In this document: positions 5,984-32,438 of the stretch, one piece after another
Layout of the letters: each line of letters opens with the position of its first letter
Numbering within the stretch: the stretch's first letter is position 1
Source of the DNA: Novosphingobium sp. 17-62-19
GTDB lineage: Bacteria > Pseudomonadota > Alphaproteobacteria > Sphingomonadales > Sphingomonadaceae
DNA: 32,438 bases
NCBI RefSeq assembly: GCF_002256775.1
Contig: NZ_NCII01000061.1
Coordinates: 1-32,438 of the forward strand
Direction of reading: 5' to 3'
The notes under the pieces: generated by a model
What the model was told of the DNA's origin: nothing
The model's input: the letters and a program-made list of their open reading frames with translations, nothing else
Databases searched by the model: none
Program-made: the position numbers and the translations under genes

Positions 5984-6008
5984 CAATAAAGCGTCACGAC
6001 AAGCGGAA

Positions 6009-7500: not shown

Positions 7501-7581
7501 AAGGCGGCGTATCGGCGTCCGCCTGTGCTTTTGCATCCGAGCTTCGAAGATCAACTTTGTAGCCGGAGAAGGGGGAGGATC

Positions 7582-10449: not shown

Positions 10450-10481
10450 GGTCTTGATAACGTTCAGGCACAATGGGAAAA

Positions 10482-10503: not shown

Positions 10504-10573
10504 GTTCTCCTGAAAACTGGGGGCCGGGCGGCGCAGATCGCACAAGCTCCAGAGGATGAAGTCAGGCAAACCC

Positions 10574-13786: not shown

Positions 13787-13810
13787 GCAATACTTGTCAC
13801 AATACCATTT

Positions 13811-13830
13811 CGCAGCCTACGAAGGCTGCG
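13811..13830 (+). terminator. Perfect 8-bp hairpin between halogenase and lacI
   Basis: CGCAGCCT and AGGCTGCG pair perfectly around ACGA, 25 bases after the halogenase stop and 31 bases before the LacI start. It lacks a T-run, so it is at best a weak intrinsic terminator or processing signal between the two gene groups. Confidence 0.5.
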
Positions 13831-13861
13831 GGTGCCTAGTCAGAGGGGTAATTAAGACACG

Positions 13862-16104: not shown

Positions 16105-16164
16105 TCGCAAAAGCCTGCTGAAAGGCTTGATTTATGCCCGCTGACATGTGAAACGCTTTGAATT

Positions 16165-16176
16165 GAGAACGTTCAC
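16165..16176. promoter_or_regulatory. LacI-type operator upstream of the GH3 gene
   Basis: GAGAACGTTCAC is the exact reverse complement of the first operator before the TonB receptor (7471-7482) and differs at one base from the perfect palindrome there. It ends 17 bases before the GH3 ATG, so binding would block transcription or early elongation. This ties the GH3 gene to the same LacI regulator. Confidence 0.7.
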
Positions 16177-16193
16177 AGAAGTTGGGGAAGTCG

Positions 16194-18602: not shown

Positions 18603-18631
18603 GAGGTTTATGACTACCGGTGGACATACGC

Positions 18632-18676
18632 CTCCGGTTGCGCGAAAAGGATGGGAGAATCCCAGCGCAGCCGGAG
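18632..18676 (+). ncRNA. Candidate structured leader of the sulfite oxidase gene
   Basis: A nested stem-loop lies between GH3 and sorA. CTCCGG (18632-18637) pairs with CCGGAG (18671-18676), TGCG (18639-18642) with CGCA (18666-18669), and TGGGA (18652-18656) with TCCCA (18660-18664) around GAA. The outer right arm overlaps the Shine-Dalgarno-like GGAGAGGA (18673-18680) of the GTG at 18688, so folding would hide it. The stretch has third-position base use unlike the genes on either side, which argues that it is not coding. It does not match any riboswitch class I can recall. Confidence 0.4.
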
Positions 18677-18687
18677 AGGAATTGGCC

Positions 18688-19881
18688 GTGTTCGACCGTA
18701 GAATGTTTCTCGCCGGAGCTGGCGTTGCCGCGCTTGGCGGCCCGGCGCTTGCGGCTGACGGTGGCGTGACGCTGCCATTTGGCAACGGTGCGCGGCCATT
18801 GGTGCGGATGCCACAGAAGCGCGAGATGATACTGCTCACCACGCGCCCGCCGCAATTGGAAACGCCGTTTACGGTGTTCAACGACGGATTGTTGACGCCC
18901 AACGATGCTTTTTTCGTGCGCTATCACTTGTCGGGACTGCCCACAGTGATCGATCCGGGCGCGTTCCGACTGAAGGTTGGCGGGCATGTGGGCAAGCCGC
19001 TGGAACTGTCACTCGCCAGCCTGAAGCGTGATTTTCCGGTCAGCGAGATCGTGGCGGTCAACCAGTGTTCGGGCAACAGCCGGGGCTTCGTGCAGCCGCG
19101 CGTGGGAGGCGGGCAGCTTGGCAACGGGGCGATGGGCAATGCCCGCTGGCGTGGTGTGGCGCTGAAGCATCTGCTTGAAAAGGCAGGGCTTCGTGAAGGC
19201 GCGCGGCAGGTGACTTTCAACGGGCTGGACAACCCGCCGCTCGATGGCATTCCCGATTTCGTCAAAGCGCTCGATCTGGATCATGCGCTGGATGGCGAGG
19301 TGATGGTGGCGTTCCAGATGAACGGGGAGGACCTGCCGTTCCTCAACGGCTATCCGCTGCGGCTGATCGTGCCGGGCTATTACGGCACCTATTGGGTCAA
19401 GCATCTGGACGAGATTACCGTCGTGGATGCGCGGTACGATGGGTACTGGATGAAGACTGCCTATCGCATCCCCGACAACGACTGCAATTGCTTGGAGCCG
19501 GGGCAGAAGCCTGACAAGACCAAGCCGATTGGGCGTTTCAACGTGCGCTCTTTCATCACCAGCCATGGCGATGGCGCGCAGGTGAAGGCGGGCAGCGTGG
19601 CCGAATTGCGCGGCATTGCCTTTGCCGGGGGCGATCCGGTGCGGCGAGTCATGGTTTCGGCTGACGATGGGCAGACCTGGCATGAGACGCAGCTGGGCGA
19701 GGATCTGGGGCGCTATTCCTTCCGCGAATGGCGGCTGGGGGTGACGTTTGGGGCCGGGAAGCACGCGATTAAAGTTCGGGCGGAGACGGCAGGCGGAGAA
19801 GTTCAGCCTGTAACCGCGCGCTGGCAACCGGCGGGGTATATGCACAATCCGGTTGAGACGATCATGGTGGAGGCGGTTTGA
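18688..19881 (+). CDS. sorA: Sulfite oxidase-type molybdopterin enzyme (SorA/SoxC-like), Tat-exported
   Basis: This is a periplasmic sulfite dehydrogenase catalytic subunit, 397 aa. An N-terminal twin-arginine signal (FDRRMFLAGAGVAALGG) shows folded export with its cofactor. The molybdopterin domain carries the Mo-ligand Cys in AVNQCSGNSRGF, followed by NARWRGVALKHLL, LDNPPLDG and the PGYYGTYWVKHLDEI stretch. A C-terminal dimerisation domain (VRRVMVSADDGQTWHET) completes the family layout. Two starts compete: ATG 18610 behind a perfect AGGAGG only 3 bases away, giving 26 extra codons, and GTG 18688 behind GAGAGGA. I chose GTG because it puts the RR motif at the N-terminus and leaves the upstream hairpin non-coding. 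The stop overlaps the cytochrome ATG by one base. Confidence 0.88.
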   Translation: MFDRRMFLAGAGVAALGGPALAADGGVTLPFGNGARPLVRMPQKREMILLTTRPPQLETPFTVFNDGLLTPNDAFFVRYHLSGLPTVIDPGAFRLKVGGHVGKPLELSLASLKRDFPVSEIVAVNQCSGNSRGFVQPRVGGGQLGNGAMGNARWRGVALKHLLEKAGLREGARQVTFNGLDNPPLDGIPDFVKALDLDHALDGEVMVAFQMNGEDLPFLNGYPLRLIVPGYYGTYWVKHLDEITVVDARYDGYWMKTAYRIPDNDCNCLEPGQKPDKTKPIGRFNVRSFITSHGDGAQVKAGSVAELRGIAFAGGDPVRRVMVSADDGQTWHETQLGEDLGRYSFREWRLGVTFGAGKHAIKVRAETAGGEVQPVTARWQPAGYMHNPVETIMVEAV

Positions 19882-20192
19882 TGCGGGCGCTGGTTCTTTC
19901 CGCGGGGCTTGCGGCTCTGGCGGTGTCTGTCGGTGCTTCGGGCGCGAAGCCGGTGACGTTCGAAATGCCGGAAGAAGCTGTGCCTGCCGAATTGGCCGAC
20001 AATGAGGGCGAGCCTGTGGTTGCGGCCTGTTCGACCTGTCATTCGCTGGAATACATCACCACCCAGCCACGCGGCAAAGGCCCCCAGTTCTGGCGTGATG
20101 CGGTGGCGAAGATGGTCAACGTTTACAATGCGCCGCTGGAACCGTCCGATGCCAATGCGGTGGCAGAGGTTTTGGCGAAGCGGTTCGGGTGA
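19881..20192 (+). CDS. sorB: Small c-type cytochrome, electron acceptor of the sulfite dehydrogenase (SorB-like)
   Basis: The 103-aa protein has a signal peptide (MRALVLSAGLAALAVSVGAS) and one haem-c site C50-S-T-C53-H54. Met78 in AVAKMVNVYNAPL is a probable distal ligand. It overlaps the sorA stop (TGATG), so the two are made together, matching the SorAB arrangement in which a mono-haem cytochrome takes the two electrons from sulfite oxidation. The symbol follows from this pairing rather than from sequence identity. A convergent repeat follows the stop and likely ends the transcript. Confidence 0.88.
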   Translation: MRALVLSAGLAALAVSVGASGAKPVTFEMPEEAVPAELADNEGEPVVAACSTCHSLEYITTQPRGKGPQFWRDAVAKMVNVYNAPLEPSDANAVAEVLAKRFG

Positions 20193-20206
20193 ACTAAAGG
20201 ACCCGT

Positions 20207-20289
20207 GATCCTGAACTTGTTTCAGGATCCATCGTGCCCATCAGGCTGCCGCATGTGGTGAGAAATGGACCCTGAAACAAGTTCAGGGT
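20207..20289. repeat. Palindromic repeat between convergent genes, likely bidirectional terminator
   Basis: ATCCTGAACTTGTTTCAGG at about 20209-20227 is mirrored by CCCTGAAACAAGTTCAGGG at 20270-20288, so the two arms form a long hairpin with about a 40-base loop. Each arm is itself a partial palindrome. It fills the gap between the cytochrome gene and the oppositely oriented exporter gene. This sequence type is a frequent intergenic repeat in sphingomonads (general knowledge). Confidence 0.75.
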
Positions 20290-20308
20290 GACGACGTTTT
20301 CTTTGCGG

Positions 20309-21388
20309 TCAGCCGACCAGCATTGCAGCGGCGAGCGAGGCCACGAAGCTCACCACCGTGGCAATGGCCACCGGGATTGCAGGCTTCAACCCGGTCTCCA
20401 TCAGCAGGTCGAGGCGGCTGCGCATGGCGGTGGCGATCACGGCTATCAGCAGCAGGCCTTTTGATCCGCTGAGCGCCGCATCGCGGGCAGGGGCGGGGAT
20501 GGGGGCCAGCGAATTGAGCAGGACCACGCCGAAGAACGCCACGATGAACCACGGCAGGGCGAGGCGCTTCCACACCGGGCCATCCTTGCTTTGCCCCACA
20601 TTGCCTATCACCAGCCCGGTGACGATCACCACGGGTGCCAAGAGAGCCACGCGCGAAAGTTTGACGATGGTGGCATAGCTGCCCGCGCTTTCCGAAAAGG
20701 CGTAGCCGCCGCCGATGGCCTGCGCGACATCGTGGATCGACGCGCCGATCAGGAAGCCGGCCTGACTGTCAGTCAATTGCAGGTATTCGGCGAGGATCGG
20801 ATAGAGCGACATGGCCAGCGCACTGGCAAGCGAGACAACGACCAGCGTGATGGCGAATTGCGACTGGCTGAGCCGTTCGCGCCCGATGATGCCATAGAGC
20901 GCCATCGCTGCGCTTGCCCCGCAGATCGCTGTGGCTCCGCCTGCCAGAATGCCGGTGTAGCGTGACTGGCCGACCAGTTTTGCGCCTGCGACTCCGGCGA
21001 GGAATGTGACCGTCATGATCGCCACCAGCGCCGCGAACGGTGCCGGTCCCAGCGATCCGATCTGCGAGAACGTGACCTGCAATCCCAGCAGCACCACGCC
21101 AAAGCGCAGGCAGGTACGCGAGGCGAAATCGAGGCCCATGTGGCTGCGCGGGTCGCGCGCCACGAAGCTGAGCGACAGGCCGATCAGCAGGCCGAGCAGG
21201 ATGATCGGGAAGTGGTAGTGTTCAGAAAGCCATGCCGCGGCTGCGGCGGCAATTGCGCAGATGGCAAGCCCGTGGAATACCGTCTCACGCGGTTCGGCGG
21301 TGGCGGGAGCGGTTTCGGCAAGGTGCATTTCGCCGAACAGGTCAGCCGCAGAGGGGAGCGAATCCCAATCGATTTCCTGCCGCGCCAC
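20309..21388 (-). CDS. YeiH/TauZ family (UPF0324) putative sulfate exporter
   Basis: The protein is about 359 aa with roughly ten hydrophobic segments and the family hallmarks LRFGVVLLGLQVTF, GGATAICGASAAMA and GASIHDVAQAIGGGY. Members of this family (YeiH, TauZ) occur beside sulfonate-degradation genes and are proposed to export sulfate. Here it stands convergent to a sulfite dehydrogenase and near a sulfoquinovosidase operon, which fits that role. The first 35-40 residues are polar and cytoplasmic. GTG 21388 is preferred because GGGAG lies about eight bases upstream; GTG 21403 would add five residues. Confidence 0.9.
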   Translation of the reverse strand: MARQEIDWDSLPSAADLFGEMHLAETAPATAEPRETVFHGLAICAIAAAAAAWLSEHYHFPIILLGLLIGLSLSFVARDPRSHMGLDFASRTCLRFGVVLLGLQVTFSQIGSLGPAPFAALVAIMTVTFLAGVAGAKLVGQSRYTGILAGGATAICGASAAMALYGIIGRERLSQSQFAITLVVVSLASALAMSLYPILAEYLQLTDSQAGFLIGASIHDVAQAIGGGYAFSESAGSYATIVKLSRVALLAPVVIVTGLVIGNVGQSKDGPVWKRLALPWFIVAFFGVVLLNSLAPIPAPARDAALSGSKGLLLIAVIATAMRSRLDLLMETGLKPAIPVAIATVVSFVASLAAAMLVG

Positions 21389-21517
21389 GTGCTGTTCTCC
21401 CACGATTGACCCGCTCTCTGTCCTGCGGTGTCACATTATGCTTTCCTTACGCGCGGCAGCGGCTATCGTGCAAGTGGGAAGCGCCAGTAGAGCGACCGAA
21501 GTTTGGGAGAATTTCGC
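21389..21517. promoter_or_regulatory. Divergent promoter region, exporter / MFS transporter
   Basis: The 129-base gap between two divergent genes contains CGATTGACCC (21403-21412) and GCGGTGTCA (21425-21433). Both words recur in the other divergent promoter of this locus (25639-25648 and 25680-25688), suggesting a shared regulator site. A Shine-Dalgarno GGGAG sits before the MFS ATG. No clear -35/-10 pair with standard spacing could be settled. Confidence 0.4.
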
Positions 21518-22756
21518 ATGACGCAGGGTAAGGGCATGGGCCAAGGGGGCATGGGACGCGGTGCGGCGATTGCGCTCGTGACGCTGTTGTTCCTTGGCAA
21601 TGCGCTGAACTATGTCGATCGGCAGGTGCTGGCGCTGCTCAAGCCCACGCTGGAGGCCGAGTTTGGCTGGTCGGACGCGGAATACGCGCACCTTGGCTCC
21701 TCGTTCCAGATCGCGGCGGCGGGCACGTTGCTGTTTGTCGGCTGGTTTGTCGACCGGCTGGGCGTGCGCGTGGCCTATGCCATCGCGGTCACGGTGTGGA
21801 GCGCGGCGGGCATGGCCCATGCGCTGGCGCAAACGGTGCAGCAGTTCGTTGTCGCGCGGATCGTGCTGGCAGCGGGCGAATCGGTCTCGACACCGGCGGG
21901 GTTGAAGGCAGCGGCGATCTATCTTCCTGTGAAGGAACGTAATTTTGCCATCGGGTTGATCAACACGGCACCCAATATCGGCGCGATCCTCACACCGTTG
22001 CTGATCCCGCCATTCGCCTTGGCCTTCGGGTGGCAGGCGGCCTTCTGGGTCACCGGCGCGCTTGGTTTTCTGTGGCTCGCCGGGTGGTGGTTCGGCACTC
22101 GCAACCTCAAACCGCTGGGCAACATTCCCGAGCGCGCGCGCGTGCCGTGGGGCGTGCTGCTGCGGGACCGCAAGACGTGGACGGTGATCGGCGCGAAGTT
22201 CTGCATCGATGCGGTGTGGTGGTTCGTGCTGTTCTGGATGCCCGACTTCTTCAACCGCCAGTTTGGGCTGGGGCAGGGGGCGTTGGGATGGCCCATCGCG
22301 ATCATCTTCACGCTGGCGGCGCTGGGCGCGCTGACATCAGGCGGGCTGTATCCGATCCTGCTGAGCCGGGACTTCAGCGTGAACGCCGCGCGTAAAACGT
22401 CGATGCTGTTCTATGCGCTGGTCGTGCTGGCCATGCCGCTGGCGCTGCTGACCGACAACCCGTGGCTGGCCGCCGTGCTGATCGGCCTTGGCCTGTTTGC
22501 GCATCAGGGCTTTTCCACCAACGTCTTCGGCATGACCGCCGACATCATCCCCGCCACCCGCGTCGCCAGCGTGATCGCGCTGGGGGCGATTGCCGGGAAC
22601 CTGTCGGGCACGGGGATCATCGAATTTGCGGGTTGGTCGCTGACCAACGGGCTGGGTTACGGGCCGCTGTTCGCGATCTGCGGGAGCGCGTATCTGGTGG
22701 CGCTGGGGTTCATTCAGGTGATGTTGCCGAAGCTGGAACTGGCGGCGGGGGAGTAG
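21518..22756 (+). CDS. MFS transporter, ACS/hexuronate-like, candidate sulfoquinovose(-glycerol) importer
   Basis: This 412-aa protein has 12 predicted membrane segments. The anion:cation symporter signature is visible: LNYVDRQVLALLKPTLEAEF after the first helix, then GWFVDRLGVRV, and GESVSTPAGLKAAAIYLP in the helix 4-5 region. Relatives carry hexuronates, galactonate and other organic anions, which is the right chemistry for an anionic sulfo-sugar. Its position between the sulfate exporter and the TonB receptor of a sulfoquinovosidase operon makes import of sulfoquinovose or sulfoquinovosyl glycerol a reasonable guess, not a demonstrated fact. ATG 21518 has GGGAGAATTTCGC upstream; the TTG at 21503 is rejected. 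A strong hairpin terminator follows. Confidence 0.88.
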   Translation: MTQGKGMGQGGMGRGAAIALVTLLFLGNALNYVDRQVLALLKPTLEAEFGWSDAEYAHLGSSFQIAAAGTLLFVGWFVDRLGVRVAYAIAVTVWSAAGMAHALAQTVQQFVVARIVLAAGESVSTPAGLKAAAIYLPVKERNFAIGLINTAPNIGAILTPLLIPPFALAFGWQAAFWVTGALGFLWLAGWWFGTRNLKPLGNIPERARVPWGVLLRDRKTWTVIGAKFCIDAVWWFVLFWMPDFFNRQFGLGQGALGWPIAIIFTLAALGALTSGGLYPILLSRDFSVNAARKTSMLFYALVVLAMPLALLTDNPWLAAVLIGLGLFAHQGFSTNVFGMTADIIPATRVASVIALGAIAGNLSGTGIIEFAGWSLTNGLGYGPLFAICGSAYLVALGFIQVMLPKLELAAGE

Positions 22757-22772
22757 GCTCTTTTGCTGGTGC

Positions 22773-22798
22773 CGCGCCCCCGCCTTCGCGGGGGCGCG
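22773..22798 (+). terminator. Strong GC hairpin after the MFS gene
   Basis: CGCGCCCCCGC and GCGGGGGCGCG form an uninterrupted 11-bp stem around CTTC, 16 bases after the MFS stop. No T-run follows. Its position between the MFS gene and the oppositely oriented small gene is consistent with transcript termination or 3'-end protection for either. Confidence 0.65.
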
Positions 22799-22816
22799 AT
22801 GCATGTTCGGGTGAGC

Positions 22817-23077
22817 CTAAGGTCTGATTTCATCGCCCAAGGTGTATTTTGGAAGCTCTATCAAAGCCGTTTCGAAGCCTTCGCGGATTTGAGTTTGGGT
22901 GAAACCGCGGTCCCAAAGTTCGGTCATGAGATAGGCCATCGCCTGTGGCAGCGCAGGGATATGTGGCCAAGGGTTGCTCTGGTGAAGTCCCCGAAGCTCA
23001 ACAGCAAATGCTTGCACGGCGGCAAAACCTCTGTCCTGCCACACATCATCTGAATCTGGTTCGACTGATCCGCTCAT
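22817..23077 (-). CDS. Small hypothetical protein, 86 aa
   Basis: The 86-aa soluble protein starts MSGSVEPDSDDVWQDRGFAA; the rest is a compact Trp/His-rich sequence with WPHIPALPQAMAYLMTELW and GFTQTQIREGFETALIELP, suggesting a small helical domain. It has an acidic N-terminus and no membrane segment. Amino-acid composition and codon positions look like a real gene, and nothing convincing lies on the other strand. The start at 23077 has no Shine-Dalgarno; the frame is open 12 codons further to a TTG, with an internal GTG. It lies downstream of the TonB receptor terminator on the same strand. I do not recognise a family, and the link to sulfo-sugar metabolism is positional only. Confidence 0.6.
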   Translation of the reverse strand: MSGSVEPDSDDVWQDRGFAAVQAFAVELRGLHQSNPWPHIPALPQAMAYLMTELWDRGFTQTQIREGFETALIELPKYTLGDEIRP

Positions 23078-23177
23078 TTGGCGGAGGCTATCGAAACGGA
23101 CAAGCACCCGCAACAGGGTGTGTCTGGAGCATCAGGATTCAACGCAAGACACCGGCAAGCCGCCACCTGATTCCACA

Positions 23178-23215
23178 ACAAAAAAGAGGCCCCGGACTTT
23201 CGCCCGGAGCCTCTT
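23178..23215 (-). terminator. Intrinsic terminator of the second TonB receptor
   Basis: On the minus strand, AAGAGGC-CCGGG pairs with CCGG-GCCTCTT over about 12 bp around the GCGAAAGT loop. A run of Ts follows (AACAAAAAA on the plus strand at 23178-23185), making a standard Rho-independent terminator. It begins about 25 bases after the receptor stop. Confidence 0.85.
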
Positions 23216-23239
23216 CTTACGCCGAGGGAGGATCGACGG

Positions 23240-25576
23240 TTACTGGAACTTGGCGCGCAGGCTCACGCCGAAGTAGCGGTCGGCGTCGCGCGGGATCTGC
23301 AGGCGCTGGCCGGCGCTGACGTTGAGCAGCGCGTAGGACTTGTCGGTGATGTTCCGTGCCAGGAACGTCAGGCGATAGAGATCATCCGCGTCCGAGAAGC
23401 CCACCGAAGCGTTCCAGATGCCATAGGCGTCAATCGGGCCACTCTCGCCAAGGTCGGAGAACTGCTTGCCGACATGGCGGAAGTCGGTGTCGAGGTAGAG
23501 CTTCACGCTGCCCAGATCCCGTTCGTAGCTGCCGCCCAGCGTGTAGGTGAACTTCGGGGCCAGCGGCAGGCGCGTGCCGTTGCGGGCGTCGGGCGCGTTG
23601 GTGTCGGGGTTCGGGTTGAACTTCAGCACCTTGGCATCGGCATAGGCGGCGCTTGCGCGCAGCGTCAGCCCGTTCACCGGCACGGCCAGCAGATCGGCTT
23701 CGAAGCCCTTGCTGCGCACAGAACCGGCGTTGGTCAGGTTCGAAACGACCGCACCGTTGAGAAGCACGAAGTTGTTCGCCTGGAAGCCGTTGTAGGTGAC
23801 GGTGAAGGCCGAAGCGTTGAACTGCACGCGGTTATCGAGGAACTGCGACTTCAGGCCGATTTCGAAGGCGTCAGAGGTTTCCTCGTCGATCGGAATGGCG
23901 TTGGTCGGTGCGGTGTGGTTGAAGAACACGTTGAACGCCGGACCCTTGTAGCCACGTGTGTAGCTACCGTAGAGCATCACGTCGTCCGACGGGGTGAACT
24001 GCAGCACGGCGCGGCCCGAGAGATTGCCGTTGCTGCTTGAACCGGCAGAAGTGTTGGTGCCATTGCCGCCCGAAGCCAGCGTGCCGCCTGCGGGAGCGCC
24101 CGAAACGCCGGGGCCGGTAGCGGGAAGGCCGGTGGTGGCATTCACGCCCGGTGCGCGGGTGTGCGTGTAGTCCAGCTCATCCTTCGTATAACGCAACCCG
24201 CCGGTGAGCGAGATCATGTCGCTGAAACGATAGGTGGCTTGGCCGAACACCGCGTAGTTACGCGATTGCACGTCGCTGAACGATGTGGCCGTGGGGAACA
24301 GGGTGTTGACCGTGTCTGCCGTGTTGCAGGGCCGTGCGCCAGTTACCGGATCGACGGGCAGGGTGGAGGTGTTGCAGGTGATGTTGCGGCGGGTGAAGTC
24401 CTGCTGGTTGTTCGATCCCCAGGCAAACGCGCCTACCTGATAGAAGAACGGCTGCGTCTGGTCAGAGGCAAGCCGCACTTCGAGGCTGAGTTGCTGGGTG
24501 CGCACTTCGCCGTTGTCATGCAATTCGCCGGTGCCGACGATGGCACGGGGGAGGAAATCGCCCTCACGCACTTCTTCGTTCTGCCAGTTGCGATAGCCTG
24601 CGATCACGCTGAGCGAGTGGCTATCGAACACGTCGAAATCACCCGATGCGGTGAGGCTCCACTGACGGTCCTTGGTCTGCGTGACGAGGTTGTGGTTGAC
24701 AGTGCGCTGGTCCAGCCCTTGCGCCACACCGCCTGGCAGGCCGAGTTCGGCATCCAGCACCGCGCCACGGCTGACCGTGGTGACGTCGGCGCAGCAATCG
24801 TCATTGGCCTTGAAATAGTCCGCGATCAGGCGAAAGCGCGAGGTGCCGTTTTCGTAGTCGAGAATGCCGCGTGCGCCGTAGTGTTCGTAACCGTTGACCT
24901 TTTCATTGCGGCCGCCGAACACGTTGGTGATGTTGCCATCATAGTTGCCGTAAAACCCGGTCACGCGGGCGCTGAGGCCTTCACCCAAAGGACCGGAAAC
25001 GGCACCGCGCAGGCGGTATTCCTCATCTTCGTAGTATTCTGCGCGGACTTCACCTTGCAGCGTATCGGTGCCGCCCTTCGACACGATGTTGACGAGGCCT
25101 GCCGAGGCGTTCTTTCCGAAAAGGGTGCCTTGCGGGCCGCGCAGCACTTCAAGGCGCTGTGCGTCAACGAGGTCCATGAAGGCCTGGCCCGAACGGCTGA
25201 GCACCACGCCATCGACCACGGTGGAAACGCTGGGTTCGGCGGCGACCGAAAAGGTGATCGTGCCCACGCCGCGCATCACGATGGCGCTGTTGGCGCTGGT
25301 GGTGCCTTTGCGAAACGTGACCGAGGGGACGAGCTGGGTCAGCCCTTCAAGGCTGGTGACGCCGCTCGATTCGAGGCGGTCTGCCGTGATCGCGGTGATA
25401 GCGATTGGCACGTCCTGCACGTTTTCCGCCACCTTCTGCGCGGTGACGACGATTTCGCTGATGCCGCCGGTTTCTTCGGCCGCTTCCTGCGCATTTGCGT
25501 GGCCCGCGAAGGCGAACGACAAGGCGCTGGCAGATAGGGCCAAGGCGCGCACGGACGGACGGTGGGTGAATTTCAT
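23240..25576 (-). CDS. TonB-dependent receptor, candidate sulfoquinovosyl-glycerol / sulfolipid-fragment receptor
   Basis: This is a 778-aa outer-membrane receptor with a signal peptide ending FAFAGHANAQEA. The TonB box is in the form ISEIVVTAQKVAENVQDVPI, followed by a plug (RGVGTITFSVAAEPSVSTVV and LEVLRGPQGTLFGKNASAG) and a beta-barrel closing with SLRAKFQ. The IVVTAQ...RGPQGTLFG type is the FecA/PupB-like group abundant in sphingomonads, where many members carry organic compounds other than siderophores. ATG 25576 follows GGGAGAG. The gene is divergent from the GH31 operon with a shared 161-base promoter region, which makes joint control and a role in importing the GH31 substrate likely. 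It differs in type and length from the receptor at 7582-10449. Confidence 0.93.
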   Translation of the reverse strand: MKFTHRPSVRALALSASALSFAFAGHANAQEAAEETGGISEIVVTAQKVAENVQDVPIAITAITADRLESSGVTSLEGLTQLVPSVTFRKGTTSANSAIVMRGVGTITFSVAAEPSVSTVVDGVVLSRSGQAFMDLVDAQRLEVLRGPQGTLFGKNASAGLVNIVSKGGTDTLQGEVRAEYYEDEEYRLRGAVSGPLGEGLSARVTGFYGNYDGNITNVFGGRNEKVNGYEHYGARGILDYENGTSRFRLIADYFKANDDCCADVTTVSRGAVLDAELGLPGGVAQGLDQRTVNHNLVTQTKDRQWSLTASGDFDVFDSHSLSVIAGYRNWQNEEVREGDFLPRAIVGTGELHDNGEVRTQQLSLEVRLASDQTQPFFYQVGAFAWGSNNQQDFTRRNITCNTSTLPVDPVTGARPCNTADTVNTLFPTATSFSDVQSRNYAVFGQATYRFSDMISLTGGLRYTKDELDYTHTRAPGVNATTGLPATGPGVSGAPAGGTLASGGNGTNTSAGSSSNGNLSGRAVLQFTPSDDVMLYGSYTRGYKGPAFNVFFNHTAPTNAIPIDEETSDAFEIGLKSQFLDNRVQFNASAFTVTYNGFQANNFVLLNGAVVSNLTNAGSVRSKGFEADLLAVPVNGLTLRASAAYADAKVLKFNPNPDTNAPDARNGTRLPLAPKFTYTLGGSYERDLGSVKLYLDTDFRHVGKQFSDLGESGPIDAYGIWNASVGFSDADDLYRLTFLARNITDKSYALLNVSAGQRLQIPRDADRYFGVSLRAKFQ

Positions 25577-25737
25577 GGTGTCTCTCCCTGCAAAAAGCGG
25601 CCTTCCAAGGGTAGTCATGCTCCCTCGTCGATCGGCCGCGATTGACCCTTGATCTGCTATGACTGTCTCGATATGTCAAGCGGTGTCAGAAAAACGGACA
25701 GCACCTGCGGCCAATTGGTCACGGTAGGGCTGCCGGG
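25577..25737. promoter_or_regulatory. Divergent promoter region of TonB receptor and sulfoquinovosidase operon
   Basis: A plausible plus-strand promoter is TTGATC (25649-25654) and TATGTC (25672-25677) with a 17-base spacer. On the minus strand a consensus TTGACA lies at 25679-25674, so the two promoters would overlap. Candidate operator sequences are the CCAATTGG palindrome (25711-25718), TGTC-N9-GACA (about 25684-25700), and the words CGATTGACCC and GCGGTGTCA shared with the 21389-21517 region. The LacI protein encoded in the operon is the likely binder. Confidence 0.45.
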
Positions 25738-27762
25738 ATGAGGAAAACGCCTTTGGAACTGCGGCTGGTGGCCGGAATGGATGGGTTCGAACTCCGATTC
25801 GGGGATCGGTTGGTGCTGCGTCACACGCAGTCCTGTCCTGCGGTGGTCATGGCGCGTGGAAATTCTGAAGTGCTGATGTATCGGGGTAACTTCCGCATCG
25901 GCGACAACCCTCATGGAGAAATCGTCCCTGTGGGCTGGCGTGAAAGCACTGGCGGCATTGTCCTGCTGGATGGTGACGTGATCGTCGCACGTCTTGCAGT
26001 TGAACAGACCGCCTTGACCGTCAGTGCGCTGGTGCCCGGATATGACCGTTTGCGGGTGCGGTTCCATGCTGAATCCGGCGAGTGCGTCTGGGGCGGGGGC
26101 GAGCAGATGAGCTACCTTGCGCTGAACGGCCGCAGCTATCCGATCTGGACGAGCGAGCCGGGGGTGGGGCGTGACAAGTCCACCGAACTCACCCAGCGCA
26201 TGGACGCCGAGGGTATGGCGGGTGGCGATTACTGGAACACCAACTATCCGCAGCCCACGTTCCTGACCTCGCGCTGGCTGGCGGTGCATCTTGATGCGAG
26301 CTGTTACAGTGTGCTCGACTTCACCGATCCGGCGTTTCATGCGGTGGATGTGTGGAGCGGCGCGGCGCGGTTTGAAGTGTTCGGCGATACCGGGCCGCAA
26401 GGGTTGGTCTCGCAGCTTTCCGCACGTTTTGGCTGTCAGCCTGAATTGCCCGATTGGGCCATCGGCGGCGCGATTGTCGGGCTGAAATCGGGTGGAAGTA
26501 GCTTCGACCGTCTGGAGAAGTTCATTGAAGCGGGCGTTGCCGTATCTGGCCTGTGGTGTGAAGACTGGGCAGGTGTGCGCGAAACGAGCTTTGGTCGACG
26601 CCTGTTCTGGGACTGGCACAGCGGTGCGCGCAGTGCAGAGCGCCATCCCGATCTGGCGGCGCGCATTGCGGCGCTGAACGCACGGGGTATTCGCTTTCTT
26701 GCTTATGCCAACCCCTATATCGCGGTGGACGGTGACCTGTATGAGGAAGCACGCGCGGGCGGACATTTCTGCCTGCGGACCGACAGCGATGAGGTGTACC
26801 TCGTTGATTTCGGTGAGTTCGACTGCGGCGTGGTCGATTTTACCCGCGCTGAAACACGTGCCTGGTTTGCCGAGCGTATCCTTGGGCGTGAAATGCTCGA
26901 CATCGGCATTTCGGGCTGGATGGCCGACTTTGGCGAATACCTGCCGACCGATCTACGCCTCGCCGATGGTTCCGATCCGATGGACGCGCACAACCGCTGG
27001 CCGGTGCTGTGGGCGCAGGTCAATGCCATGGCGCTGGAATCACGCGGCAAGACGGGCGATGCACTTTTCTTCATGCGCGCTGGGTTTTCGGGCGTGCAAG
27101 GCTATTGCCCGCTACTGTGGGCGGGCGACCAGTCGGTTGATTTTACGCGCCACGATGGCATCGGCACGGTCATCACCGGCGCGCTTTCGGCAGGATTGGT
27201 GGGCAATGCCTACAGCCATTCGGACTGCGGCGGCTACACCTCGCTCCACGGCAACGTACGCACCGCCGAACTGATGCAGCGCTGGTGTGAACTCGCCGCC
27301 TTCGCACCGGTCATGCGCAGCCATGAGGGCAACCGCCCTGACGACAACCTGCAGTATGACAGCACGCCTGAACTGCTAGCTTGTTTCGCCCGATGGAGCC
27401 GGGTTCACGCGCACCTTGCACCTTATGTCCGCCACCTTTGTGAAGAAGCCAGCGTGCGCGGCTTGCCGGCACAACGTCCGCTGTTCCTGCACTACCCGCA
27501 GGAAACCGCGCTCTTTACGGTGCAGGACCAGTTCATTTACGGTGCCGATCTGCTGGTGGCACCGGTGATCGAGGAAGGGGCTGCGTCGCGCCGGGTCGTC
27601 CTTCCGGGGACCGAAACGTGGCGAAATTGCTGGACGGGTGAGGACTTTGCCCCCGGCACGCATGAAATTCCTGCTCCGATCGGTCAGCCACCTGTATTCT
27701 ACCGACCGGACAGCGCGTTCGCGCCACTGTTCGAAGGATTGAAGGGTGTGCTGGAAGCATGA
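25738..27762 (+). CDS. GH31 sulfoquinovosidase (YihQ/SmoI type, KERW variant)
   Basis: The enzyme hydrolyses alpha-sulfoquinovosides such as sulfoquinovosyl glycerol to sulfoquinovose. The 674-aa protein has no signal peptide, so it acts in the cytoplasm. It aligns with E. coli YihQ (from memory) at nucleophile Asp397 in GWMADFGEYLP (YihQ D405), acid/base Asp464 in WAGDQSVDF (D472) and His529 in MRSHEGNRP (H537). The sulfonate-recognition residues are Lys250 (GLKSGG), Glu275 (WCEDWAG), and Arg288 and Trp291 (GRRLFW): the KERW set reported for the Agrobacterium enzyme rather than the QQRW set of E. coli. Few GH31 enzymes have these residues, so the call is specific. The stop overlaps the regulator ATG (ATGA). 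It heads a five-gene operon. Confidence 0.93.
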   Translation: MRKTPLELRLVAGMDGFELRFGDRLVLRHTQSCPAVVMARGNSEVLMYRGNFRIGDNPHGEIVPVGWRESTGGIVLLDGDVIVARLAVEQTALTVSALVPGYDRLRVRFHAESGECVWGGGEQMSYLALNGRSYPIWTSEPGVGRDKSTELTQRMDAEGMAGGDYWNTNYPQPTFLTSRWLAVHLDASCYSVLDFTDPAFHAVDVWSGAARFEVFGDTGPQGLVSQLSARFGCQPELPDWAIGGAIVGLKSGGSSFDRLEKFIEAGVAVSGLWCEDWAGVRETSFGRRLFWDWHSGARSAERHPDLAARIAALNARGIRFLAYANPYIAVDGDLYEEARAGGHFCLRTDSDEVYLVDFGEFDCGVVDFTRAETRAWFAERILGREMLDIGISGWMADFGEYLPTDLRLADGSDPMDAHNRWPVLWAQVNAMALESRGKTGDALFFMRAGFSGVQGYCPLLWAGDQSVDFTRHDGIGTVITGALSAGLVGNAYSHSDCGGYTSLHGNVRTAELMQRWCELAAFAPVMRSHEGNRPDDNLQYDSTPELLACFARWSRVHAHLAPYVRHLCEEASVRGLPAQRPLFLHYPQETALFTVQDQFIYGADLLVAPVIEEGAASRRVVLPGTETWRNCWTGEDFAPGTHEIPAPIGQPPVFYRPDSAFAPLFEGLKGVLEA

Positions 27763-28772
27763 GCGAGCGGTCAAACATTCGGGACGTGGCGGCCAAGGCG
27801 GGAGTGGCGGTGAAAACCGTCAGCCGCGTGCTGAACGGGCATCCCTATGTCAGCGCCGATACCAAAGCGCGTGTCGAAGAAGCGATGCGCGCGCTCGATT
27901 TCCGGCCGAGCGTTGCAGCGCGCATTCTTTCAGGTGCAAAGTCGAACCAGATCGCGCTGATTTACGACAATCACAGCCCGTACTACATGTTCCAGATCCA
28001 GACCGGCTGCTGGGACTTCTGCCGCGCAAACAACATCCGCCTGCTGGCCCAGCCTGTCGATGTGGCTGATCCGCAAGTGGGAGAGCAGGTGCGCGGGCTG
28101 GTGAGCGAAACCCATGTAGACGGGATCATCCTGTCTTCTCCTGTGACCGATTGCGACCCGGTGCTGCGCGCGCTGGAGGCGATGGACATTCCCTTCGTGC
28201 GCATATCGCCCGGCACCAATCACGCGCTGACCAGTTCGGTGTTCATGGACGATGCGCAGGCAGCGGACGATATGACCACGCATCTGATCAACGCAGGGCA
28301 CCGCCGCATCGGCTTTATCAAGGGCCACCAGAACCACATGGCTTCGGACGATCGACTGTTCGGTTATCGTCGTGCGCTGGACCGGGCGGGGATTTCCTAC
28401 GACCCGGTGCTGGTGTGTGATGGCGAGTTCGATTTCGATTCCGGCACGCGCGGCGGCAATGCACTGCTCGATCTGCCCAACCGACCCACTGCGATCTTCG
28501 CGTCGAACGACGATATGGCGGCGGGCGTGCTGGCCATTGCGCATGATCGCGGGATCAATGTGCCGGCAGAGCTTTCCGTTGCAGGCTTTGACGACACCAC
28601 GCTTGCCCGCACGGTCTGGCCTCCGCTGACCACGATCCATCAGCCGATGATCGAACTGGCGCGCACGGCCACCGAAATTCTCATTGCGGGCGGCGATATT
28701 TCCCACCGTCGTCTGCCTCATACTCTCGTAGAGCGCGCATCGGTCGCGCCGCCACACAGGACTGTTTCATGA
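27759..28772 (+). CDS. LacI-family regulator of the sulfoquinovose operon
   Basis: The 337-aa protein has an N-terminal LacI helix-turn-helix (NIRDVAAKAGVAVKTVSRVL), a hinge (FRPSVAARILSG) and an effector-binding domain with SNQIALIYDN, GHRRIGFIKGH, TAIFASNDDMAAGVLAIA and LSVAGFDDTTLARTVWPPLT. It overlaps both neighbours by ATGA, so it is made with the enzymes it presumably controls. The likely inducer is sulfoquinovose or its glycoside, and the likely operators are in the divergent promoter at 25577-25737; both are inferences. It is clearly distinct from the regulator at 13862-14941. Confidence 0.92.
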   Translation: MSERSNIRDVAAKAGVAVKTVSRVLNGHPYVSADTKARVEEAMRALDFRPSVAARILSGAKSNQIALIYDNHSPYYMFQIQTGCWDFCRANNIRLLAQPVDVADPQVGEQVRGLVSETHVDGIILSSPVTDCDPVLRALEAMDIPFVRISPGTNHALTSSVFMDDAQAADDMTTHLINAGHRRIGFIKGHQNHMASDDRLFGYRRALDRAGISYDPVLVCDGEFDFDSGTRGGNALLDLPNRPTAIFASNDDMAAGVLAIAHDRGINVPAELSVAGFDDTTLARTVWPPLTTIHQPMIELARTATEILIAGGDISHRRLPHTLVERASVAPPHRTVS

Positions 28773-29683
28773 GCGAATTGCAATTGCCACCTGCTTTCCG
28801 TCCTCTTGGCAAGAGCGACATTGCTGTGTCGCCTATTGCATGGGGCATGTGGCGGCTGGCCGAGGATGGGCGCAGCGCTGCTGATGCGGCAAAGCTGGTC
28901 CATGCCGCGCTGGATGCCGGGATCAACTTCCTTGATACTGCCGATATTTACGGGTTCGACGGCGCGGGCGGCTTTGGCGATGCCGAGGCGTTGTTGGGCC
29001 AAGTGCTGGCGGCCGAACCTGCGCTGCGTGAGCGGATGGTATTGGCCACCAAGGGCGGCATCCTGCCCCCGCTGCCCTATGACCAGAGCGCTGACTATCT
29101 GCGCAAGGCCATCGAGGATTCACTCACACGCCTGAAGGTGGACGTGATCGACCTGTGGCAGATCCATCGCCCGGATATTCTTGCTCATCCGCAGGAAGTG
29201 GCGCGCGTGCTGGACGATGCTGTCGCTTCGGGCAAAGTTCGGAAGTTGGGTGTGTCGAACTTCACGATGCCGCAGCTCGCCGCGCTCAATCATTTTCTGG
29301 GCGAGAAGCTGGTCACGACGCAGCCGGAAATCAGCCCGCTGCGGATCGATTGCTTCGAAAACGGCGAACTGGATCAGGCGATGATGATGGGCCTGACGCC
29401 GATGGCATGGTCGCCGCTGGGTGGGGGCCGTCTCGCCTCGCCCGAAACTGCGCGGGACATTGCCGTGGCCGAGGCGCTCGACGTGGTGGCGCAGGCACAG
29501 GGCGTTTCGCGCACTGTTGCGGCCTATTCATGGCTGATGGCGCACCCGGCGGGGATCATCCCGATCATCGGATCGCAAAAGGCTGAGCGGATTGCCGAGG
29601 GTGCGCAGGCGCTCACGGTGCAGTGGACACGTACAGATTGGTACGCCGTGCTGGTTGCGGCGCGGGGCGAGCGGCTCCCGTAA
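28769..29683 (+). CDS. smoB: Aldo/keto reductase, SmoB-like (6-oxo-glucose reductase candidate)
   Basis: This 304-aa (alpha/beta)8 NADPH-dependent reductase has the complete catalytic tetrad: Asp56 and Tyr61 in FLDTADIYG, Lys95 in VLATKGG and His133 in LWQIHRPD. Cofactor-binding segments are LGVSNFTMPQL, the AWSPLGGGRL loop and PIIGSQKAERI. In the sulfo-SMO pathway SmoB reduces 6-oxo-glucose, the product of sulfoquinovose desulfonation, to glucose. Its position directly before the SsuD-like monooxygenase and after the sulfoquinovosidase supports that role; by sequence alone it is a general aldo/keto reductase. It starts within the lacI stop (ATGA) and ends 37 bases before the monooxygenase. 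Confidence 0.85.
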   Translation: MSELQLPPAFRPLGKSDIAVSPIAWGMWRLAEDGRSAADAAKLVHAALDAGINFLDTADIYGFDGAGGFGDAEALLGQVLAAEPALRERMVLATKGGILPPLPYDQSADYLRKAIEDSLTRLKVDVIDLWQIHRPDILAHPQEVARVLDDAVASGKVRKLGVSNFTMPQLAALNHFLGEKLVTTQPEISPLRIDCFENGELDQAMMMGLTPMAWSPLGGGRLASPETARDIAVAEALDVVAQAQGVSRTVAAYSWLMAHPAGIIPIIGSQKAERIAEGAQALTVQWTRTDWYAVLVAARGERLP

Positions 29684-29720
29684 CAGAAGACTTGCGCCCG
29701 CCGTGAAAAGGAGAGGCAAG

Positions 29721-30809
29721 ATGGCCGAACAGAATTGCGAGATCGCCTGGTTCTCGGCACTGTGCGACGATGATTACGAATTCCTGGGCGTGCCGGACAA
29801 ATACCTGCAATCAAGCTGGGAGCATTGCCGCAACATCGTGATGCGCGCCGAAGAAGGCGGGTTCGACAATATCCTGCTGCCATCGGGTTATAGCCTTGGG
29901 CTGGATACGACTGCCTTTGCCGCTGCTGTCGCCACTCAAGTGCGCCGGATCAAGCTGCTGTGGGCTACGCGCATGGGCGAGGACTGGCCGCCACAACTGG
30001 CACGTCGCATCGCCACACTGGACCGCATCCTCGGGCCGAATGCAGCAGGCACAGGCGGTCGGCTGAACGTCAATATCATCTCATCCGACATGCCGGGTGA
30101 GACGATTGCCAGCGGCCCGCGCTATGCCCGTGCGACCGAGATCATGAAGATCGTGCGCACGCTGCTGAACGGGGAATCGCTCGATTTTCAGGGGGAGTTC
30201 TACAAGCTCAAGCTGGATCCCCCACGCATCAGCACGCTTTCAGGCAAGTGTCCCGCGTTCTACTTCGGCGGGTTGAGCCACGATGCGCGCGAATGTGCGG
30301 CAGAGGCGAGTGACGTCTACCTGATGTGGCCCGACACGATGGACAAGGTGCGCGAAACCATCGCCGACATGAAGGCGCGCGCCGCAAACTATGGCCGTAC
30401 GCTGAAGTTCGGCTACCGCGTCCATGTGATCGTGCGCGAAACCGAGGACGAGGCGCGGGTCTATGCCGACCGTCTGCTGTCCAAGCTGGACGACGAGGCA
30501 GGCAAGGCGATCCGTGAGAAATCACTGGATGCCAAGAACTTCGGCGTGCAGCGCCAGCAGGAACTTCGCGGCGCGGCCGATGGTGATGGCTTTGTGGAAG
30601 AAAACCTGTGGACTGGCATCGGTCGTGCTCGGTCAGGCTGCGGTGCGGCAATTGTCGGCACGCCCGATCAGGTGTTGGCCAAGTTGCGCGCCTATCAGGC
30701 AGAGGGGATCGAGGCGTTTATCCTGTCAGGCTATCCGCACGCGCAGGAGGCTGATCTGTTTGCCCGCCATGTGCTGCCGCATATCCAGCACGGGCCGCTG
30801 GATATCTGA
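29721..30809 (+). CDS. smoC: SsuD/SmoC-like FMNH2-dependent monooxygenase, sulfoquinovose desulfonation
   Basis: This 362-aa bacterial-luciferase-like TIM barrel is related to alkanesulfonate monooxygenase SsuD. Residues important in SsuD are kept: Trp203 (YLMWPDT; SsuD W196), Arg233 and His235 (FGYRVHVIVRET; R226, H228), Arg304 (GRARSGCG; R297) and Tyr338 (FILSGYPH; Y331). SsuD Cys54 is replaced by Leu59. In a sulfoquinovosidase operon the best reading is SmoC: oxygen-dependent cleavage of sulfoquinovose to sulfite and 6-oxo-glucose. It requires reduced FMN, and no reductase gene (smoA) is seen in this window. ATG 29721 has AAGGAGAGG upstream. The stop shares one base with the glpD ATG. Confidence 0.88.
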   Translation: MAEQNCEIAWFSALCDDDYEFLGVPDKYLQSSWEHCRNIVMRAEEGGFDNILLPSGYSLGLDTTAFAAAVATQVRRIKLLWATRMGEDWPPQLARRIATLDRILGPNAAGTGGRLNVNIISSDMPGETIASGPRYARATEIMKIVRTLLNGESLDFQGEFYKLKLDPPRISTLSGKCPAFYFGGLSHDARECAAEASDVYLMWPDTMDKVRETIADMKARAANYGRTLKFGYRVHVIVRETEDEARVYADRLLSKLDDEAGKAIREKSLDAKNFGVQRQQELRGAADGDGFVEENLWTGIGRARSGCGAAIVGTPDQVLAKLRAYQAEGIEAFILSGYPHAQEADLFARHVLPHIQHGPLDI

Positions 30810-32305
30810 TGTCGGACGCCGTGGACAAGACTGTGTTTGACGTCGCCGTGATTGGCGGTGGCGTCAACGGCACCGGAATTGCGCGCGATGCTGCGGGGCG
30901 TGGCGCGAAAGTGCTGCTGCTCGAAGCGCACGACCTTGCCAGCGGCACGTCGTCCAATTCCAGCAAGCTGATCCACGGCGGATTGCGTTACCTTGAGCAC
31001 TACGAGTTCGGACTGGTGCGCGAGGCTTTGGGCGAGCGTGAGAAACTGTGGGCCATCGCGCCGCACATCATCTGGCCAATGCGCTTTGTGCTGCCGTGGG
31101 TGCAGGGGTTGCGCCCGCGCTGGCTGCTGCGGTTGGGGCTGTTCCTATACGACCACCTTGGCAAGCGGCGACTATTGCCTGCGACCGAAGCGGTGCGGCT
31201 GGATCGCCATGTGGCAGGCGCGGCGCTCAAGCCTGAGTTTATGTACGGTTTCGTCTATTCGGATGGTTGGGTGGATGACGCGCGGCTAGTGGTGCTGAAC
31301 GCGCGTGATGCGGCTGACAAAGGGGCCGAAGTCCGCACGCGTTGCCCGGTGGAAAGACTGGAGCGCGATGGCGATCATTGGCGGATCGAAACCGCGCAAG
31401 GCACATTCTGCGCGCGCTCGGTTATCAACGCAGCGGGGCCTTCGGTCCTGACCGTGCTTGGCCGCAGCGGGGAGGCTCCGAAGCAATCCATCCGCCTTGT
31501 GCGCGGATCGCACATCGTGGTGCCAAAACTGTTCGACCACCCGCATCCCTACTTCTTTCAATTACCCGACGGACGCATCTTCTTCGCCATACCCTATGAA
31601 CACGACTACACGCTGATCGGCACGACCGACCGTGATCATGTTGCGGGCCAACCCATCGTAGCGAGCGACGAGGAGGTGGCCTATCTTTGCGAGGGCGCGA
31701 GCCGCTTCTTTAGCAAGCCCGTCATGCCTGCCGATGTCGTCTGGAGCTATTCCGGCGTGCGCCCGCTGATGGATGATGGTTCGGGCAAGCCGGAAGCGGC
31801 CACGCGGGGCTATACGTTCGAGGTAAGCGATCCTGCCGAAGGCGCACCGATCCTTTCGGTCTTTGGCGGCAAGATCACTACGTTCCGCACGCTTTCCGAA
31901 GAGGCGGTGGATCGCATGGGCGAGCGCATTCCCGCATTGTCCGGCACCCACTGGACCGATTGCAATTCGCTGCCGGGGGGTGATTTCGGTGTAGGGGAAG
32001 TGGTGCAGCGGATCGTAGATCTGCAGGCACGCTACCCTTTTCTTGCACCTGCATGGGCCGAACGTCTGTTCCGCAACTACGGCACGCTGGCCACCACCGT
32101 GCTGGGCGATGCCGCAACGCTTGCCGATTGCGGCGAACACTTCGGACACGGCCTGACCGAGCGCGAAGTGCGCTATCTGGTTTCGCACGAATGGGCGCGT
32201 GAGGCAGATGACGTACTGTGGCGACGCACCAAATTGGGGCTACGCCTGCCAGAGCAGCAGCAGGAAAGCCTGCGTCGCTTCATGCGGGAATTGACCGCGC
32301 CATGA
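30809..32305 (+). CDS. glpD: Aerobic glycerol-3-phosphate dehydrogenase
   Basis: This 498-aa flavoprotein oxidises sn-glycerol-3-phosphate to dihydroxyacetone phosphate and passes electrons to quinone at the inner membrane. The FAD fold is at the N-terminus (DVAVIGGGVNGTGIARDAAG), followed by SGTSSNSSKLIHGGLRYLE, RLVRGSHIVVPK, YEHDYTLIGTTDRD, SYSGVRPL and SVFGGKITTFR. The C-terminal domain has RNYGTLATTVLG and VSHEWAREADDVLWRRTKLG, as in full-length GlpD. In this operon it would use the glycerol freed from sulfoquinovosyl glycerol after phosphorylation by glycerol kinase. It follows the monooxygenase with a TGATG junction, and its stop overlaps the start of a broken glycerol-kinase-like ORF. 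Confidence 0.95.
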   Translation: MSDAVDKTVFDVAVIGGGVNGTGIARDAAGRGAKVLLLEAHDLASGTSSNSSKLIHGGLRYLEHYEFGLVREALGEREKLWAIAPHIIWPMRFVLPWVQGLRPRWLLRLGLFLYDHLGKRRLLPATEAVRLDRHVAGAALKPEFMYGFVYSDGWVDDARLVVLNARDAADKGAEVRTRCPVERLERDGDHWRIETAQGTFCARSVINAAGPSVLTVLGRSGEAPKQSIRLVRGSHIVVPKLFDHPHPYFFQLPDGRIFFAIPYEHDYTLIGTTDRDHVAGQPIVASDEEVAYLCEGASRFFSKPVMPADVVWSYSGVRPLMDDGSGKPEAATRGYTFEVSDPAEGAPILSVFGGKITTFRTLSEEAVDRMGERIPALSGTHWTDCNSLPGGDFGVGEVVQRIVDLQARYPFLAPAWAERLFRNYGTLATTVLGDAATLADCGEHFGHGLTEREVRYLVSHEWAREADDVLWRRTKLGLRLPEQQQESLRRFMRELTAP

Positions 32306-32379
32306 CCGATCAACGCTGTATTCTCGTCCTTGAAGAATCTGGTCGTGTCCCACTGGGTGGTGTAAGAAGGTTTCCCTGA
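32302..32379 (+). pseudogene. glpK: Interrupted glycerol kinase gene, N-terminal stub
   Basis: The ATG overlaps the glpD TGA (ATGA) and the first ten codons read MTDQRCILVL. This resembles the start of glycerol kinase, whose next residues should be the phosphate-binding D-x-G-T-T-S. Instead the frame gives EESGRVPLGG and stops at 32377-32379. The sequence from about 32335 on looks like the end of an insertion sequence, so the simplest explanation is a transposon insertion just after codon 10. The rest of glpK would lie beyond the window. The stub is short, so identification rests on position after glpD and the start pattern. Confidence 0.5.
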
Positions 32380-32438
32380 CAGGGTAGCCACCGTCGATCT
32401 TCTGTTAGGGTTCGGATGCGAACTCGAACCTGGAGAAG
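32335..32438 (+). mobile_element. Probable insertion-sequence end (IS256-like), runs off the window
   Basis: From about 32335 the sequence changes character: GTGTCCCACTGGGTGGTGTAA, with a GTGTAA typical of inner ends of IS256-group terminal repeats, followed by a non-coding leader that ends in a purine-rich CCTGGAGAAG, which would be a Shine-Dalgarno just before a transposase start beyond base 32438. The exact left boundary and any target duplication cannot be fixed without the other end. IS-family assignment is a memory-based guess; that the sequence is foreign to glpK is better supported. Confidence 0.45.

Follow-up and report, generated by a model that had tools for sequence, protein, structure and literature searches.

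The window analysed here is a stretch of 32438 nucleotides from Novosphingobium sp. 17-62-19 that makes up one entire contig (NZ_NCII01000061.1; C99 of genome G000), and positions 20309–32305 of it carry a predicted locus for the desulfonation of the plant sulfosugar sulfoquinovose (Table 1). In the right third of the window, SorA and SorB (plus strand, 18547–20192, upstream of the locus) are followed by a PF03601/YeiH-family gene (minus), a major facilitator superfamily (MFS) gene (plus), a TonB receptor gene (minus) and the series GH31, LacI, aldo/keto reductase, monooxygenase and GlpD (plus). An earlier note, made from the sequence alone, had described this series as one overlapping operon; the ends of GH31 and LacI, of LacI and the reductase, and of the monooxygenase and GlpD do overlap by a few bases, but the reductase and monooxygenase genes are separated by 37 bp. 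The divergent TonB receptor and the MFS gene that it had named were both recovered by Pfam, and the contig terminates 133 bases past GlpD.

Table 1. Features of the predicted sulfoquinovose locus and the adjoining SorAB genes (window coordinates)
Feature	Position	Strand	Evidence
GH31 sulfoquinovosidase, SmoI/YihQ type	25738..27762	+	PDB and NCBIfam matches, kept residues
LacI-family regulator of the operon	27759..28772	+	Pfam LacI and Peripla_BP_3
Aldo/keto reductase, SmoB/SquF type (predicted 6-dehydroglucose reductase)	28769..29683	+	Nearest solved relative 7bbz; tetrad
Predicted FMNH2-dependent sulfoquinovose monooxygenase, SmoC/SquD clade	29721..30809 (likely start 29721)	+	7olf/7oh2 matches, tree, motif
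GlpD, glycerol-3-phosphate dehydrogenase	30809..32305	+	NF008899, 707.7 bits (cut-off 360)
TonB-dependent receptor, divergent from GH31	23240..25618	−	Pfam Plug and TonB_dep_Rec_b-barrel
MFS transporter, probable inner-membrane importer	21503..22756 (likely start ATG 21518)	+	Pfam MFS_1, 157 bits; predicted operator upstream
YeiH-family (PF03601) protein, probable sulfite exporter	20309..21403	−	Pfam PF03601; genus-wide association
Predicted operator 1, TGTCAAGCGGTGTCA	25674..25688	+	TonB–GH31 intergenic region
Predicted operator 2, TGTCCTGCGGTGTCA	21419..21433	+	YeiH-family–MFS intergenic region
SorA sulfite dehydrogenase catalytic subunit, Tat-type signal	18547..19881 (start uncertain; 18610 or 18688 possible)	+	NF052245
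SorB cytochrome c subunit	19878..20192	+	NF052246; CSTCH at codon 51

The GH31 enzyme matched six YihQ-type sequences in the PDB at 796–595 bits, while the next other GH31 reached only 131 bits, and it exceeded the cut-off of NCBIfam model NF007746 (862.7 against 553 bits). Its nearest solved relative was 5ohy (796 bits, 55.1% identity), which we take to be the Agrobacterium sulfoquinovosidase; the six entries are named alpha-glucosidase yihQ, sulfoquinovosidase, alpha-glucosidase or GH31, and presumably all are sulfoquinovosidases. Residues K250, E275, R288, W291, Y500 and D464 agree with 5ohy, the equivalent of D464 being the residue that differs (D/N) between 5ohy and 5ohs, and we assume that they form the set that binds the sulfonate and sulfoquinovose together with the acid/base. 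The sulfoquinovosidase active-site residues announced in the earlier note, and with them the GH31 sulfoquinovosidase by which the sulfo-SMO pathway is recognized, are thus present.

The monooxygenase matched 7olf and 7oh2, whose PDB titles mention the oxidative desulfurization of sulfoquinovose, at 364 and 358 bits, as compared with 201 bits for MsuD and 183 bits for SsuD, and it was 53.6% identical to 7olf as against 36.4% to MsuD. In a 35-row tree it grouped with 7olf and 7oh2, and MsuD, SsuD and a Methylocystis row fell outside this group. The separating branch had a support of 100/100 and was long, a point on which the program gave a warning; within the group the sphingomonad and 7olf/7oh2 branches were separate, with weak support. 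Residues W203, R233 and R304 are the counterparts of W195, R225 and R296, the sulfonate-binding motif given for MsuD in passages of PMC8234197, the loop GRARSGCG is identical to that of 7olf, and the whole protein is 98% identical to its counterpart in Novosphingobium sp. AAP83. An MsuD-like identity was considered and dropped, the PDB titles tying 7olf to sulfoquinovose and PMC8234197 placing MsuD at 7jv3, and an AlphaFold model, built on 29 close sequences, was of poor quality (mean predicted local distance difference test score 55.6) and was not used as functional evidence. The comparison with the Smo proteins recommended in the earlier note therefore identifies a SmoC/SquD-type monooxygenase, the second enzyme expected of a sulfo-SMO pathway, which by its relationships would act on sulfoquinovose to give sulfite and 6-dehydroglucose. 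It is very improbable that it is instead an ordinary alkanesulfonate (SsuD/MsuD) monooxygenase for sulfur scavenging, with neighbours serving ordinary glucosides: the family is the same and the best NCBIfam model is alk_sulf_monoox, but this model scored far under its cut-off (244.8 versus 518.2 bits), and the PDB scores, the tree separation, long branch included, and the adjacent GH31 of the YihQ branch all speak against it.

For the aldo/keto reductase, the nearest solved relative was 7bbz (185.9 bits, 42.1% identity; next different protein, 155 bits), which we take to be SmoB, its PDB molecule name reading 'aryl-alcohol dehydrogenase'. The tetrad D56/Y61/K95/H133 is intact, as had been claimed. 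The genes for this SmoB/SquF-type reductase and the monooxygenase are adjacent, and co-localization of SmoB and SmoC is how sulfo-SMO clusters were delimited in a passage of PMC13372026.

The glycerol handling proposed in the earlier note is supported by the presence of GlpD in the operon. This genome holds three GlpD copies, namely that of the locus, another about 1 kb before a glycerol kinase (contig C120) and a third with an internal TGA. On plasmid pLA3 of N. pentaromativorans a glycerol kinase follows GlpD within the locus, which supports sulfoquinovosyl glycerol as a substrate.

The search of sphingomonad genomes for the same gene order, also suggested in the earlier note, led to N. aromaticivorans DSM 12444, whose locus we read in genome G005 (4001 bases of pNL2, 100% match, same coordinates). 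All eight genes recur there in unchanged order and orientation, with protein identities of 79% (YeiH family), 91% (MFS), 86% (TonB), 83% (GH31), 96% (LacI), 89% (reductase), 96% (monooxygenase) and 81% (GlpD). This locus also shares the exact operator and the second site before the MFS gene, and likewise has no flavin reductase in the cluster. Parts of PMC9594981 describe a sulfo-ASMO pathway (SquD/SquF; Liu et al. 2021) in N. aromaticivorans, found by genome mining and with recombinant enzymes characterized, and parts of PMC12890257 likewise place the pathway in strain DSM 12444. We therefore consider it highly probable that we are dealing with a sulfo-SMO (sulfo-ASMO) cluster of the sphingomonad type and with an orthologue of the N. 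aromaticivorans locus. Against this, no flavin reductase was found among the 20 window proteins scanned, on a contig that ends at 32438, and the G005 locus is only presumed to be the one tested biochemically. A flavin reductase is a common and not a defining member of sulfo-SMO clusters, and, according to a passage of PMC9594981, the N. aromaticivorans sulfo-ASMO cluster lacks SsuE. The sulfo-SMO chemistry of the earlier note is thus supported by the sequence comparisons, while its suggestion that the gene complement may be undescribed did not hold: the same locus, without SorAB, lies in N. aromaticivorans, the pathway is covered in the reviews PMC9594981 and PMC12890257, as far as their passages go, and the core pathway is not new.

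Monooxygenase relatives (E ≤ 1e-60) were present in 90 of the 195 genomes searched within the genus, that of the window included. A collection of species genomes, which partly comprises the same genomes, yielded 183 stretches with a monooxygenase relative. We retained the 80 best; a sphingomonad group is named in the titles of 74 of these, and the other six are titled by class or phylum only. Among these 80, best matches were found for the reductase in 80, the monooxygenase in 80 (by construction), LacI in 77, GH31 in 76, the TonB receptor in 71, MFS in 67, GlpD, which is thus not universal, in 57, the YeiH family in 53, SorA in 7 and SorB in 2, the figures for the reductase and GH31 exceeding what chance would give. 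These counts refer to 10 kb flanks at E ≤ 1e-15, some of them cut by contig ends, include distant family members, and mostly stop before the position that SorAB has in the window. One of the stretches (L048) shows LacI, reductase and monooxygenase followed by their mirror image on a 10-kb contig, which is probably an assembly artefact.

The Agrobacterium smo cluster has an ABC importer and the flavin reductase SmoA. The window shares its three enzyme classes (SmoI, SmoC and SmoB, at the identities to 5ohy, 7olf and 7bbz given above), and differs from it in having TonB and MFS genes, GlpD and a YeiH-family gene and no SmoA-type flavin reductase among the proteins scanned, so that the claim of TonB plus MFS uptake in place of an ABC importer is supported by gene content. 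Loci on Ruegeria, Paracoccus and Rhizobium plasmids have the same monooxygenase–reductase pair, with monooxygenases 51–52% identical to that of the window, and two of them also have, close by, a gene annotated to the sulfate exporter family. The three loci differ in carrying TRAP transport, a flavin reductase and a Gfo/Idh/MocA gene (GH188-like, as we infer) in place of GH31.

It could be argued that the true substrate of the cluster is some sulfonated glycoside other than sulfoquinovose, since a substrate is not fixed by sequence and the uptake and hydrolase genes that accompany related monooxygenase–reductase pairs vary. The GH31 residues that we assume to bind sulfoquinovose are nevertheless kept. 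The N. aromaticivorans pathway is, moreover, reported in passages of PMC9594981 to act on sulfoquinovose, and we regard this alternative as unlikely.

Several variants were seen beside the common arrangement. Monooxygenase–reductase pairs with a Gfo/Idh/MocA gene (possibly GH188) for GH31 were found in L092, L226, L090, L227 and L228, from Sphingobium, Sphingomonas, and Ruegeria, Paracoccus and Rhizobium plasmids. Loci L232 (4813–15080), L059 and L060, of Novosphingobium sp. EMRT-2, MD-1 and SCN 66-18, have a monooxygenase that is 91% identical to that of the window, a GH31 that is only 52–53% identical, no LacI match and no strict operator; in EMRT-2 the GH31 gene and one for a long-chain fatty acyl-CoA ligase overlap, with a LysR gene adjoining, and this variant might handle the whole sulfolipid. 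In Rhizobium sp. WSM4643 (L089, 7447–11053) a 72% identical monooxygenase lies beside LacI and an ABC transporter, with no reductase or GH31 annotated nearby.

The predicted operator 1 was counted around both gene starts (TonB and GH31) among 71 named loci in which each of the two genes has the expected strand. The site TGTCAAGCGGTGTCA was present in all 63 loci in which the two genes are adjacent and divergent, 60 times exactly and three times with one mismatch (14–15 of 15 bases). Another eight loci, whose gene calls did not place the two genes next to each other or in divergent orientation, were left out of this count (L032, L037, L043, L051, L059, L060, L066 and L069); six of these have the exact site, and L059 and L060 do not. 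Four bases upstream of the site, mostly GATA, and one base downstream are also kept, while the columns between vary. In 11 genomes selected from the 90, exactly one exact copy of operator 1 was found per genome, always in the sulfo-SMO locus (11/11). A second site of the pattern TGTCNNNCGGTGTCA lies before the MFS gene, with a best match of at least 12/15 upstream of 30 of the 35 MFS hits of >45% identity. Within the window, only the two operators are strict TGTCNNNCGGTGTCA sites (about 0.004 expected), and operator 2 has the second-best matrix score (13.7; next, 2.9).

Four loci without a LacI gene (L059, L060, L232 and L092) have no strict site. The LacI protein of the operon is most likely the binder of the predicted TGTCNNNCGGTGTCA sites before TonB/GH31 and before MFS, judging from this pattern. 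Other observations weigh against this assignment: L188 has a LacI gene and only a 14/15 match in place of a strict site, L226, with a LacI-family gene and a Gfo/Idh/MocA gene and no GH31, has no site, the site is not a clean palindrome, and the link between regulator and site is one of co-occurrence. Perfect palindromes were tried as operators and none was recurrent. When two mismatches to operator 1 were allowed, the 11 genomes gave 60 matches as compared with 64 for the reversed-pattern control, and we claim no further targets. The shared operator is apparently new; in the sulfoquinovose literature, as represented by titles, the beginnings of abstracts and some passages, we found no account of outer-membrane uptake, a LacI operator or a sulfite route in sphingomonads.

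Among the transport genes, the best NCBIfam model for the MFS protein (TIGR00893) was under its cut-off, and the protein is a probable inner-membrane importer. The YeiH-type exporter of the earlier note was confirmed at the level of Pfam PF03601 but not at that of NCBIfam TIGR00698 (127 versus 232.6 bits), which is a point against an exporter assignment. Members of PF03601 occur in 83 of the 90 monooxygenase-bearing genomes as compared with 34 of the other 105 (odds ratio 24.8, p 7e-19 in a Fisher test, which, like that for SorA below, is uncorrected for relatedness and genome completeness), and in 44 of the 90 the gene is no more than 20 kb from that of the monooxygenase. Deletion of yeiH made Salmonella sensitive to sulfite, a transport function of YeiH being described as unproven, in passages of PMC12880088. 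Sulfate export, as proposed in the earlier note, is not supported, given the twin-arginine (Tat)-type signal of SorA: sulfate would arise outside the inner membrane, and the PF03601 protein would more likely carry sulfite. The association of this family with the monooxygenase and the TonB/MFS assignment are both apparently new.

The SorA-like enzyme with cytochrome c that had been noted upstream was confirmed: SorA scored 655.7 bits against the NF052245 cut-off of 600, and SorB 93.4 bits against that of 93 for NF052246, a marginal result. Like the SorAB proteins of these models, the pair has a Tat-type signal (RR at codon 51 of SorA, read by eye; Cys174 is present as well) and a CxxCH motif; it differs in adjoining a sulfosugar locus. 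An inverted repeat of about 90 bp, REP (repetitive extragenic palindromic)-like, occupies 20204–20293 between SorB and the YeiH-family gene, with at least 28 further copies in the genome at 74–89% identity, often on both strands (40 of 133 candidates scored).

In the genus survey, SorA (E ≤ 1e-60) was found in 53 of the 195 genomes, 21 of them over the curated cut-off, and in 36 of the 90 with the monooxygenase as compared with 17 of the 105 without it (odds ratio 3.45, p 3.3e-4). Of the 36 genomes holding both, 17 have the two genes no more than 11.5 kb apart, in three layouts: as SorAB beyond the YeiH-family gene in four (the window, G088, G034 and G021), with SorA on the strand of the monooxygenase and downstream of it in 12 (nine within 0.31 kb of its end and three after about 1.6 kb), and downstream with SorAB on the opposite strand in one (G181). 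The SorA proteins of the second layout are more distant, being under the NCBIfam cut-off and 48–51% identical to that of the window in the 11 stretches read. Such repeated proximity is apparently new.

That sulfite oxidation is built in, as the earlier note had it, was not supported. N. aromaticivorans DSM 12444 differs from the window in having no SorA match in its genome (E ≤ 1e-60), and SorAB here is without the site common to the other two divergent regions; because of these two observations, sulfite oxidation is an accessory of the sulfosugar locus, and by the layouts above a recurrent one. We put forward, tentatively and with rather less than even confidence, a sphingomonad regulon in which one LacI protein and its TGTCNNNCGGTGTCA sites control uptake, import, hydrolysis and desulfonation, the PF03601 protein is an inner-membrane sulfite exporter, and several lineages have separately added a sulfite dehydrogenase. 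The main competing explanation, that SorAB serves general sulfite detoxification, lies here incidentally and leaves a functional unit that ends at the YeiH-family gene, is a serious possibility. No strict operator was found before SorAB in the window, G088, G034 or G021, SorA was absent (E ≤ 1e-60) from 54 of the 90 monooxygenase-bearing genomes, as from N. aromaticivorans, and this genome carries another SorA on a different contig (G000:C67), all of which weigh against a tight link of SorAB with the locus. The detoxification explanation is in turn countered by the 17 of 36 genomes with SorA near the monooxygenase, in three layouts and 12 times downstream on the same strand.

From the gene identities, orthology, gene order, sites and associations observed, we infer the substrates, the directions of transport, the binding of the regulator and sulfite as the exported ion as follows. 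The TonB receptor would take sulfoquinovosides, probably sulfoquinovosyl glycerol, across the outer membrane, and the MFS protein would bring them into the cytoplasm, where GH31 would release sulfoquinovose and glycerol. The monooxygenase, with reduced flavin mononucleotide (FMNH2) supplied by a reductase encoded elsewhere, would cut the C–S bond to give sulfite and 6-dehydroglucose, and the SmoB-like reductase would convert the latter to glucose, while glycerol would pass through a glycerol kinase encoded elsewhere and then GlpD. The YeiH-family protein would export the sulfite, which SorAB of this strain may oxidize to sulfate in the periplasm. LacI likely reads the TGTCNNNCGGTGTCA sites before TonB/GH31 and before MFS.

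The earlier description of the organism as a probable phototroph was not supported. BchO, BchD and BchI are real (2388–6066, each over its curated cut-off), but PufL/PufM (PF00124) had no match in the genome, an assembly that is 94.9% complete, and BchL was found only below cut-off; the three genes may be a remnant or may belong to a photosynthesis cluster on missing contigs. At 7489–18602 lies a separate sugar-uptake-like cluster with a TonB receptor (TIGR01782), SapC, cupin-8, a tryptophan-halogenase family protein, LacI, an MFS-like protein (by eye) and GH3. The G088 stretch has no relatives of this cluster between its DUF3422 and SorA relatives, and the cluster may therefore be inserted.

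The abstract of PMC12890257 counts sulfoquinovose among the most abundant organosulfur compounds, and in an isotope-probing study of a mangrove Novosphingobium was the dominant group assimilating it (PMC13372026). With the predicted operator, regulation can be tested directly and related loci can be searched for, and a poorly characterized transporter family, PF03601, acquires through its association with the monooxygenase a specific, testable role in sulfite export. If the regulon with its added sulfite dehydrogenase is real, electrons from sulfite would feed respiration, and one cell would turn the sulfosugar fully into CO2 and sulfate.

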